In this document: piece after piece, positions 41,045-50,798 of the stretch
Layout: the number at the start of each line of letters is the position of its first letter
How positions within the stretch are numbered: position 1 is the stretch's first letter
Virus record (IMG/VR): IMGVR_UViG_3300008448_000114
Location: 1 to 53,958 of that record
DNA length: 53,958 nt
DNA from: a virus
Strand: one strand, 5' to 3'
Notes under the pieces: model-generated
What the model was told of the DNA's origin: nothing
The model's input: the letters and a program-made list of their open reading frames with translations, nothing else
Database searches by the model: none
Made by a program: the position numbers and the translations under genes

Positions 41045-41076
41045 TTTGGATAAAATATTTTCTGTTACTAACTTTG
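41045..41076 (+). promoter_or_regulatory. Bacteroidota-type promoter TTTG-N20-TAACTTTG
   Basis: TTTG at 41045-41048 is followed after exactly 20 bases by TAACTTTG (41069-41076), a full consensus match. A transcript would begin near 41081-41084, at the ATG of a 60-codon frame or at the 5' end of a structured RNA. Confidence 0.7.
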
Positions 41077-41080
41077 GTAC

Positions 41081-41263
41081 ATGGTATTAAAGCAATTTTA
41101 TATCAAGACACCGAACCCTCTCAGGTTCGTACAGCTTTCCAGAGATAGAGATTTATCCTATCAATCTAAAGCTCAGAAGTCGGATGGTAGCTGTCACCAC
41201 AACATAGACAGTAAGATTTCTCCGATAGTGTCGCAAATGGTTCAGAAACATAAAGACCCTTAG
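41081..41263 (+). CDS. Possible leaderless 60-aa ORF
   Basis: The frame MVLKQFYIKTPNPLRF to MVQKHKDP begins four bases after a consensus -7 box, the same spacing seen at three left-going genes. The residue content looks ordinary for a small basic protein. However, the same bases form several perfect hairpins (CGAACC with GGTTCG; AGCTTT with AAAGCT; CTGTC with GACAG), so the region may equally be the 5' part of a non-coding RNA. No family was recognised. Confidence 0.3.
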   Translation: MVLKQFYIKTPNPLRFVQLSRDRDLSYQSKAQKSDGSCHHNIDSKISPIVSQMVQKHKDP

Positions 41264-41760
41264 AGGTAACAGCTGTTAAGGATAGAGTAACCCTTACAGG
41301 ATATCAGGGCTGTTACGAAGGTGTACTAACCACGGTTAGCAACGTACGGTCTAAGGCATAAATTCTGAACTAATGTAAACGAAATTCATCCCGTATCTAA
41401 GGGGATACTATGCGCCTACACCAATACCGTATCTAATAACACCCCATCAAAGCTGTTATTAATACCATCACCCGGTTAGCAGCATCACTACACATAAACC
41501 CCCTAAATTCACCACCCCTCCGCACACATAACAGCTACCCCACACATTAGGTTTTTGTAAAAAAACCGGGTAGGTACGCTGTTAAACAATGGGATTGTTG
41601 GAATTTAAGTGAAATACATGAAGGTTCAGGATAACCCCCTCCCCTCTACCAACATTCCGAATCGGGGAAACGGATTCCGCAGACTGTGTACCTCGTTTTG
41701 CTTCGTTTCGGTTATGCTTCCCCGTTAGCTTCATGCTACTTTGTTAGCTGAAAAAAATCA
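41082..41760 (+). ncRNA. Candidate structured RNA or replication origin region
   Basis: This 1.2-kb divergent gap (40913-42089) lacks a convincing gene but folds densely. Pairs seen include GTAACAGC with GCTGTTAC (41267-41274 and 41307-41314 approximately), TAATAACA with TGTTATTA near 41434-41461, and CTAAC-CACG-GTTAG near 41326. A nested three-step hairpin near 41529-41582 combines AACAGC/GCTGTT, TACCC/GGGTA and GGTTTTT/AAAAACC. CGGGGAA pairs with TTCCCCG near 41663-41724. TAACAGC or its complement recurs at least five times. The stretch 41760-42010 is very AT-rich. A consensus promoter precedes it. Either a long RNA or an iteron-bearing origin fits. Confidence 0.4.
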
Positions 41761-42019: not shown

Positions 42020-42052
42020 TTTGGAATGTAGTACATATACTCCTTATCTTTG
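42020..42052 (+). promoter_or_regulatory. Early promoter TTTG-N21-TATCTTTG
   Basis: TTTG at 42020-42023 and TATCTTTG at 42045-42052 are separated by 21 bases, matching the Bacteroidota consensus. A start near 42058 gives a leader of about 30 bases containing CAAAACAAAACAAA before the ATG at 42090. This is the best candidate for the main early promoter of the right-going genes. Confidence 0.8.
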
Positions 42053-42089: not shown

Positions 42090-42557
42090 ATGAGCACACA
42101 AAAAAACGCAGTTAATCAGGAGCAAACAATTAGCGAAGGTAAAAAAGTAATTAACTTGACGGGCAAAGATGGTAAATTATCGGGCAAAGGTTTGACAGCT
42201 AAACAGGAACGCGAAGCAAAAAAAGCCCTCCGCAAAGAAACGAACGAAGCCAGGAAGGAAGCCATAAAGGAGCGCAAAGATGAACAAAAAACGTTATCTT
42301 ATCAATTTAAGGAGCTTCAAAAGTACGGGCAAACATACGCGGATAAATTAAGCAAAGAAACGGGAGCAAATGTTACCCTTGCCAATATTCAGGCGTTAAA
42401 ATATCGGGACTTTTTGCCTTTCCTTACCATGTCCGAAGATTATTCAAACACTGCGAACGGCTGGACCTTTGCCCGTCTGTTGTCTGTTGTTGCCCGTTAT
42501 TACAGAAACGAAGCAAAAAAGCAAATTACAGATTCTATCTTATTGGATATAGAATAA
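42090..42557 (+). CDS. First early gene, Lys/Glu-rich helical protein, 155 aa
   Basis: The ATG at 42090 is chosen because it follows an AAACAAAACAAA leader and lies downstream of the promoter; a longer TTG frame would begin inside that promoter. Residues 20-90 are a highly charged helix (GLTAKQEREAKKALRKETNEARKEAIKERKDEQK). The C-terminal half is a compact helical domain (LANIQALKYRDFLPFL, ANGWTFARLLSVVARYYRNEAKKQI). Nothing resembles an enzyme. Its place as the first early gene suggests a takeover or regulatory factor. The coding text also contains CGGGCAAA words that recur in the non-coding region after it. Confidence 0.75.
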   Translation: MSTQKNAVNQEQTISEGKKVINLTGKDGKLSGKGLTAKQEREAKKALRKETNEARKEAIKERKDEQKTLSYQFKELQKYGQTYADKLSKETGANVTLANIQALKYRDFLPFLTMSEDYSNTANGWTFARLLSVVARYYRNEAKKQITDSILLDIE

Positions 42558-42684
42558 GACAAGGCACGCCCGTATACGTAAAAACGTACAGATAAAATTT
42601 TGCTTATCTACGGGTGCAATATGTCGACAAAAAATGAAGATAGTCGACAAGCATAGGCAAAAAATAACCATACATGAGGGTAAA

Positions 42685-42851
42685 AAATTCAGTGAATTTC
42701 CTCAGGTAGCTTCACAAGTTGTGAACGGGCAAAGATATGTCAATGTCATCTTCAGTTCTTTGACATAACAGAATAAAGTAAGGGTATTAAGTACTTATGT
42801 ATGAACGGGTAAAAGTTCAGTGAACTCCGTTTATATTCGGCAAAGTTTGCC
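42685..42851 (+). repeat. Cluster of short hairpins with AGT triloop
   Basis: Four perfect odd palindromes centred on AGT lie at 42685-42699 (AAATTC/GAATTT), 42711-42725 (TTCACA/TGTGAA), 42814-42826 (AGTTC/GAACT) and 42839-42851 (GGCAA/TTGCC). A fifth, with GGGCAA/TTGCCC, is at 43379-43395. The first and third have similar flanks (GGGTAAAA before, TCC/TCCG after) and differ by a paired A-T to G-C change in the stem, as expected for a conserved hairpin. Confidence 0.6.
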
Positions 42852-43378
42852 CAATAATCTATTTAATATCTGTAAAGCATAAATTTACTTTATTTAGCGT
42901 TAAGGGTTAACTACATTCTATAAAAACATAATTTAATTATGTTCAGGAAAGGAAAGGTATTTTTATACCTTATCAATCTTTGTGGTAAGTCGATACCAAG
43001 ACCCAAACCTTAAACAAGTTTGCTAATTGATTCGCTCCGGTCGTTTGACTTTTATAGATTAAAGATTATTTGTAGTTAACACAAAGTAGCCCTGCATGAT
43101 GCTGATGCAGTAAAGTTTTTCTGTTTAGGCGAAGGTGCATGAAAGTGTACCTATAAACGAACTATAAAACAGATGTAAGGATTGCCAAAAATATATCTCG
43201 ATTTATCATTTATATATCCCCACACACCGGACAGCCGGAAGAGTCTGCATAAAACAGATTCGACAATTAAGGCATGAAAGTACTTTGCTACTTCGATTTA
43301 TTCATTTAGTAAAGGCGTGACTACTTTCATAAAGGTACAAATGTCTGCAAAAAAACAACCAATATTTAAGTAATGGCA

Positions 43379-43395
43379 AGGGCAAAGTTTGCCCT
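43379..43395 (+). repeat. Fifth AGT-triloop hairpin
   Basis: AGGGCAA-AGT-TTGCCCT is a perfect 7-bp palindrome with the same AGT centre as the cluster at 42685-42851 and nearly the same sequence as the copy at 42839. It lies 64 bases before the tRNA-like element. Confidence 0.6.
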
Positions 43396-43458
43396 ATACC
43401 TATACTCGCCATGATATTAAACAAATGGTATTGCTTAAATATTTTTAATAATAACAAA

Positions 43459-43514
43459 GGGAAATGGCATGGTGCATGCAGTAATGTAGTCCGGTTCGAT
43501 TCCGGGCTTTCCCC
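43459..43514 (+). tRNA. Truncated tRNA-like element (56 nt)
   Basis: GGGAAA (43459-43464) pairs with TTTCCC (43508-43513) like an acceptor stem. A canonical T arm follows the middle: TCCGG-TTCGATT-CCGGG (43490-43506), directly joined to the acceptor strand as in real tRNAs. Only 25 bases lie between the 5' strand and the T arm, with one hairpin (GCATG-GTG-CATGC). One cloverleaf arm is therefore missing and no anticodon loop is recognisable. A decoding tRNA is unlikely; a processing signal or tRNA mimic is more plausible. Confidence 0.45.
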
Positions 43515-43542
43515 TATTTATTCACTCTAAACACTAAACACA

Positions 43543-50705: not shown

Positions 50706-50798
50706 CCCGGAAGGCGTATGGAAAGCCGACAATGAGGGTGAACGTGGCCCGTCTGTAAACTCAGTAAATTGTATCAGGTTCGACTCCTGATTCCGGGG
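50706..50798 (+). tRNA. Atypical tRNA-like element with expanded anticodon domain
   Basis: CCCGGAA (50706-50712) and TTCCGGG (50791-50797) make a perfect 7-bp acceptor stem. The T arm TCAGG-TTCGACT-CCTGA (50774-50790) is canonical and abuts it, and a D-like arm GGC-N9-GCC lies at 50713-50727. ACAAT with ATTGT (50729-50733, 50768-50772) could be an anticodon stem, but it encloses 34 bases instead of 7. These include CTGTAAA, which resembles a Tyr (GUA) anticodon loop. There is no variable loop room. It may be a decayed or interrupted tRNA-Tyr or a tRNA mimic. Confidence 0.5.

Follow-up and report, generated by a model that had tools for sequence, protein, structure and literature searches.

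A 53,958-nt stretch of viral DNA (IMG/VR record IMGVR_UViG_3300008448_000114, hereafter the window) encodes a large untranslated RNA that is structured and conserved among related phages, and of this structural conclusion we are highly confident. Very large structured RNAs known from phages are few, to our knowledge, and their roles are not settled. A preliminary description of the region had proposed a large ornate RNA with a tRNA-like end, either a Bacteroidota counterpart of GOLLD and ROOL or a new class. Comparative evidence upheld the large RNA with its tRNA-like end and supports its placement as a new class among the large ornate phage RNAs, an additional one in phages that probably infect Bacteroidota. 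Membership in GOLLD or ROOL was not supported, as neither an Rfam match nor adjoining tRNA genes were found. The features of the locus are as follows.

42020–42052, plus strand: promoter of Bacteroidota type (TTTG-N21-TATCTTTG), preceding both the small gene and the RNA
42090–42557, plus strand: gene for a basic, mostly helical protein of 155 aa, directly upstream of the RNA in all nine genomes
42558–43514, plus strand: structured non-coding RNA, supported by folding, covariation and helix tracing; ends approximate
42567–42616, plus strand: 5' three-way junction, from the fold, with covariation in both 5'-domain alignments
42622–42649, plus strand: long-loop hairpin TGTCGAC...GTCGACA, with both-sided change in four of seven pairs
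42671–42708, plus strand: recurring module, a hairpin bulged by five bases on its 5' side (GTAAA type), with both-sided change in nine of 15 pairs
42754–42773, plus strand: boxA-like element AGTTCTTTGACATAACAGAA, matching the host rRNA-spacer motif at 17 of 20 bases
42798–42838, plus strand: second bulged hairpin module, common to the window and L008, from sequence and alignments
43361–43443, plus strand: 3' core junction, from the alignment (canonical cells: outer stem 75/75, P3 45/45)
43361–43374 with 43430–43443, 43380–43394, and 43408–43412 with 43425–43429: outer stem, inner hairpin and P3 of the 3' core
43400–43407, plus strand: invariant strand CTATACTC of the 3' core
43459–43514, plus strand: tRNA-like 3' domain, with an acceptor-like stem, a D-loop-like linker, a TTCGATT T-loop and no anticodon arm
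43515–43542, plus strand: leader of the next gene (TATTTATTCACTC...), seen in the sequence, starting directly after the tRNA-like domain and the same in relatives

The gene-free stretch of about 1 kb that was described earlier is real: the open reading frame list of the window holds no frame of at least 60 aa between 42557 and 43543, and a coding gene at 42558–43514 was rejected on this basis. The three-way junction placed after the stop codon is likewise present, about 10 bases downstream of it, as are the short hairpins reported for 42558–43516. A structured RNA occupies this gap, bounded by the small helical-protein gene and the gene that follows, in nine distinct phage genomes; it ranges in length from ~0.55 kb (L013) to 0.96 kb (window). 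Its placement is constant among the nine distinct RNAs, directly 3' of the same small gene and 5' of the leader of the next. The genes directly downstream are on the same strand, and the RNA lies near the start of a rightward operon. The promoter pattern has eight matches in the window against 2.04 expected and, as read by eye, TTTG...TAnnTTTG also precedes the same small gene in relatives. The 155-aa protein belongs to a divergent family whose gene is always directly upstream of the RNA. It has no convincing Pfam family, and its structural model, which is helical and of modest confidence (mean pLDDT 65), had no PDB match at E ≤ 0.001. Accompanying the RNA in all members, the protein is a possible partner of it.

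The terminase of the window belongs to PHROG 6681, is 79–95% identical to the terminases of eleven IMG/VR contigs, and is distantly similar to those of Flavobacterium and Cellulophaga phages. Given this relationship and the promoter type, the host is probably a member of the Bacteroidota; the group itself consists of freshwater bacteriophages. Relatives of the RNA were collected by searching IMG/VR with a DNA pattern built from the conserved 3' core, which identified ten contigs, all from this phage clade. Nine of these are related to the window by terminase, and L015, the tenth, has the same small gene and RNA. Together with the window they yielded nine distinct RNAs. The pattern was found in none of the bacterial genomes, and isolated phages, searched at the DNA level with the RNA region as query, gave no match. 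The single hit (L210) of a looser core pattern was discarded, as that pattern was mis-specified and could not match known members.

The whole 959-nt segment folds below its dinucleotide shuffles (z = −3.43), with none of 20 shuffles as low. In 120-nt windows of the plus strand, the mean z was −1.60 in the RNA region versus −0.37 in the rest of the window, and the lowest plus-strand stretches at the kilobase scale were the RNA region and what follows it. The reverse strand of the region also folds, and the strand cannot be told from folding energy alone; we assigned it from the T-loop, boxA and promoter, which point the same way. The same shared orientation counts against the hairpins acting as DNA, for instance in a replication origin or packaging region, with the RNA-like conservation being incidental. 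An AT-rich region with many short palindromes that folds on both strands would suit such an element, but compensatory changes that preserve three-way junctions and bulged hairpins are typical of RNA, and we consider this explanation very unlikely.

RNA structure is supported by compensatory change. For the 5' domain of the window, L012 and L008, 172 of 175 cells in 59 predicted pairs were canonical and 20 were compensatory, against one to three with a slid partner. An independent tool found 21 pairs with both-sided change in the same domain; it counts against the commonest pair, while our script counts against the pair of the window. The 5' domains of L013, L014 and L003, whose sequences are unlike those of the first set, contained 27 compensatory cells versus one to three in slid controls. 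The neighbouring coding gene, used as a control, gave 0–11 compensatory cells and 13–18 broken ones where a fold was predicted. Tracing helices by hand (5' junction, core junction, acceptor and T-like stems) resulted in seven helices that are fully canonical across eight to nine divergent sequences. All 386 of their cells are canonical despite differing sequences, a count that shows consistency rather than an unbiased test, as the tracing picked pairing strands. The closing helix of the 5' junction is canonical in 62/62 cells in nine sequences with nine different helices, arm b in 54/54 and arm c, in eight sequences, in 47/47.

These comparisons revealed a common plan. The 5' part comprises the three-way junction, the hairpin with the long loop, hairpins whose 5' bulge is A-rich and five bases long, and boxA; the bulged hairpin recurs in L013, L014 and L003 with the same shape and another sequence. 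The 3' part comprises variable modules, the core junction with its invariant strand and a hairpin RCCNT/ANGGY, and the tRNA-like domain. Which modules a member shares depends on the partner with which it is compared; conservation is highest in the 3' core. The first 216 nt of the window RNA are 89% identical to L012, and its nt 609–974 are 87% identical to L015. L003 is the closest to the window by terminase, yet their RNAs share little besides the core. The simplest reading of this mosaic would be the exchange of modules by recombination.

Like boxA and the mosaic make-up, a second RNA upstream had gone unnoticed in the preliminary description. This structured RNA of ~300 nt (41115–41420, plus strand; promoter at 41045–41076) is conserved in all seven relatives aligned, and better conserved than the RNA at 42558–43514. 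Its 78 predicted pairs have 600 canonical cells out of 621, with 124 compensatory cells in 37 pairs versus zero to two in slid controls. It had no Rfam match up to an E-value of 10 and none in isolated phages. Between the two RNAs, an intergenic stretch at 41580–41760 (CCGAATCGGGGAAACGG...) is also conserved, being similar in L013, L008 and L015, and is perhaps another structured element or a regulatory site.

We next turn to the 3' end. The window element has the acceptor GGGAAA/TTTCCC and the T arm TCCGG-TTCGATT-CCGGG. Elements this loose are not rare by chance, as a simple scan found three in the window against 4.7 per shuffled window, and comparative evidence is therefore needed to decide. 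This evidence confirmed the tRNA-like 3' end of the earlier description: seven of the nine members have the element in the same place, with changed stems that still pair (60/60 and 43/43 canonical cells). In these seven, a 6–7-bp acceptor-like stem and a 4–5-bp T stem with the loop TTCGANT conform with the tRNA-like arrangement of ~12 bp of stacked acceptor and T stems capped by TTCRANY. As read from the sequences, their linker of ~17–27 nt usually contains AAG-N(3–6)-GG, D-loop-like but stemless. All nine members end in a ~12-bp stack followed by the leader of the next gene. In L010 and L003, the T-loop element is replaced by another three-way junction, and the 12-bp stack is kept directly before CTATTT.

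The element does not qualify as a tRNA gene. ARAGORN called no tRNA or tmRNA in the window and no tRNA genes in the relatives, and at gathering score Rfam found no family, tRNA included, anywhere in the window. The element fell below the tRNA cut-offs in every member searched; the best match to the cloverleaf model (RF00005), in L012, reached 25.9 bits (E-value of 0.0057) against a cut-off of 29. The notion that the region is a tRNA array in decay, or non-coding sequence left over by chance, would gain some plausibility from the sister phages (~40% terminase identity), in whose partial loci we found no core, only tRNA-gene-like sequences, and from the phage tRNA arrays that carry the same boxA. 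Decay would not keep compensated helices, however, and no tRNA genes were recognised in members; covariation largely refutes this idea, the least probable of those that we weighed. Another tRNA-like element (acceptor CCCGGAA/TTCCGGG, TTCGACT T-loop) lies at 50706–50798 on the plus strand, in a 207-nt intergenic gap, and was called by neither ARAGORN nor Rfam.

At 42754 the window reads AGTTCTTTGACATA, which we took to resemble the boxA of E. coli and then tested. The element is the sole match with at most three mismatches in the window, where 0.01 would be expected. Scanning bacterial genomes with AGTTCTTTGACATANNGGAA gave mostly Bacteroidota matches, and the motif was in the 16S-23S spacer at 64 of the 80 bacterial loci examined and before 16S at one. 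By its sequence, the window element thus qualifies as a boxA antiterminator of the host rRNA-operon type. In six members it lies 197–217 nt from the 5' end of the RNA despite differing flanks. It is partial in a seventh (L003), interrupted by an insertion in L008/L009 and absent from L015. In the 5' domain of the window, boxA could be masked, as part of it can pair with TATGTCAA immediately upstream.

In other phage contigs, a tRNA starts within 300 nt downstream of boxA in 24 of 42 distinct contexts. There, boxA commonly heads tRNA arrays (L159, L171, L172, L175, L194, L199 and others); at the sites in L183, L190 and L192, ARAGORN recognised no adjoining tRNA. In L189 (4305–4400, reverse-complement coordinates), boxA is directly followed by a ~60-nt tRNA-like element without an anticodon arm, and the unit is preceded by ~400 nt of non-coding sequence. 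The same context recurs in L207; both are unrelated phage contigs. We suggest boxA as a search rule for stable-RNA units in contigs of Bacteroidota phages: most of the units so marked are tRNA arrays, and some have no explanation yet.

Where transcription has to cover long untranslated RNA, as in CRISPR leaders, boxA is employed. The best explanation of the locus, which we hold with moderate confidence, is that the RNA is made through the host stable-RNA pathway with rRNA-like and tRNA-like signals. Transcription would start near 42020 and pass through the small gene into the RNA, where boxA at 42754 would load the NusB/S10 antitermination complex, as in rRNA operons, allowing the polymerase to cross the untranslated kilobase without a Rho stop. 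The tRNA-like domain would then fold, with RNase P cutting on its 5' side and a 3' tRNA-end nuclease on the other; this would release the RNA, and the next gene would keep its usual leader. During infection, the mature RNA might act in trans as a folded structure that serves for scaffolding or sequestration. boxA thus offers a clue to how long untranslated RNA is transcribed by a phage, and the 3' end looks made for tRNA-processing enzymes; through these two elements the biogenesis is directly testable. Against this explanation stand the missing or partial boxA in some members, the pairing of boxA with upstream sequence, the scores of the tRNA-like element below tRNA cut-offs and the missing T-loop in two members, because of which cleavage by tRNA enzymes is possibly not general.

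The main rival to the stable-RNA reading is an element that works in cis as a leader or antiterminator, much as HK022 put or the EAR element do; with boxA, the folded RNA would modify the polymerase so that it reads through the long downstream operon, and would yield no separate RNA. The position near the start of a rightward operon, the presence of boxA and the same-strand genes that follow at once are all consistent with it. Known cis antiterminators, however, need far less than 0.96 kb, a tRNA-like end hints that the RNA is separated from the mRNA, and the structure stays though boxA is lost in two members; we regard a cis-acting role as rather unlikely. An rRNA signal and a tRNA-like element joined in one RNA could also point to a decoy, a mimic of pre-rRNA and pre-tRNA that ties up NusB/S10 or tRNA-processing enzymes, or absorbs a defence nuclease that targets tRNA or RNA. 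Variable modules exchanged between phages would suit such an arms race, but each signal is single, not repeated as in a sponge, and each is missing in some members, leaving the decoy only a slim chance. More speculatively, and in our view less likely than not, the stable-RNA reading might be widened: a giant phage RNA may pose as both pre-rRNA and pre-tRNA, recruiting the rRNA antitermination complex and tRNA-processing enzymes of the host to become an abundant modular machine (cage, scaffold or decoy) whose modules are swapped among related phages by recombination.

We finally compared the RNA with known systems. The Rfam families named in the preliminary description (GOLLD, ROOL, raiA and tmRNA) gave no match, nor did OLE or introns; for GOLLD (RF02032) and ROOL (RF03087), this held up to E-values of 5–10 in the window, L014 and L012, and tmRNA was likewise absent from the weak hits. 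Hits to rli45 (E-value of 0.0075, minus strand, 29.8 of 60 bits) and to DUF2693 RNA (16.4 of 81.3 bits) were judged to be chance. The RNA is not described in the papers accessible to our literature search.

Regarding the rRNA-operon boxA, the window and L012 match the Bacteroidota 16S-23S spacer motif at 17–18 of 20 bases; the difference is that the phage boxA, known from its sequence, lies inside a phage RNA, ~200 nt from the 5' end. The tRNA-like end of MALAT1 is cleaved by RNase P. Like this mascRNA-menRNA (RF01684), the phage element is short, tRNA-like and devoid of a proper anticodon arm, and it sits where a long non-coding RNA ends on its 3' side. The mascRNA-menRNA family was the only one listed by Rfam at E ≤ 10 in L014, where the hit was not significant (E-value of 0.93) and, at 17.9 versus 42.5 bits, falls short of membership. 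mascRNA-menRNA is an animal element, whereas ours is from a phage and its cleavage is a prediction. Like tmRNA (RF00023), the element has an acceptor and T arm, a stemless D-loop-like stretch and no anticodon arm. Unlike in tmRNA, its acceptor strands are local, not at the two RNA ends; neither Rfam nor ARAGORN matched it to tmRNA, and there is no tag reading frame.

Among the closest parallels are ROOL and GOLLD, likewise large, elaborately folded phage non-coding RNAs linked to tRNAs. Ours differs from them in lacking an Rfam match, in its junctions, in the tRNA-like element that is part of its own 3' end, and in the presence of an rRNA boxA. ROOL is typically, if not strictly, sited beside tRNA islands, and neither the window nor its relatives have an adjoining tRNA gene. 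Cryo-EM work covers GOLLD, ROOL and OLE, and has shown that GOLLD, conserved towards its 3' end and variable towards its 5' end, forms a closed 14-mer nanocage (PMC12286853). In our RNA, too, the 3' core is the best conserved part and the remainder is mosaic. By analogy, it plausibly works like other large ornate phage RNAs, perhaps as a folded scaffold of the ROOL or GOLLD kind.
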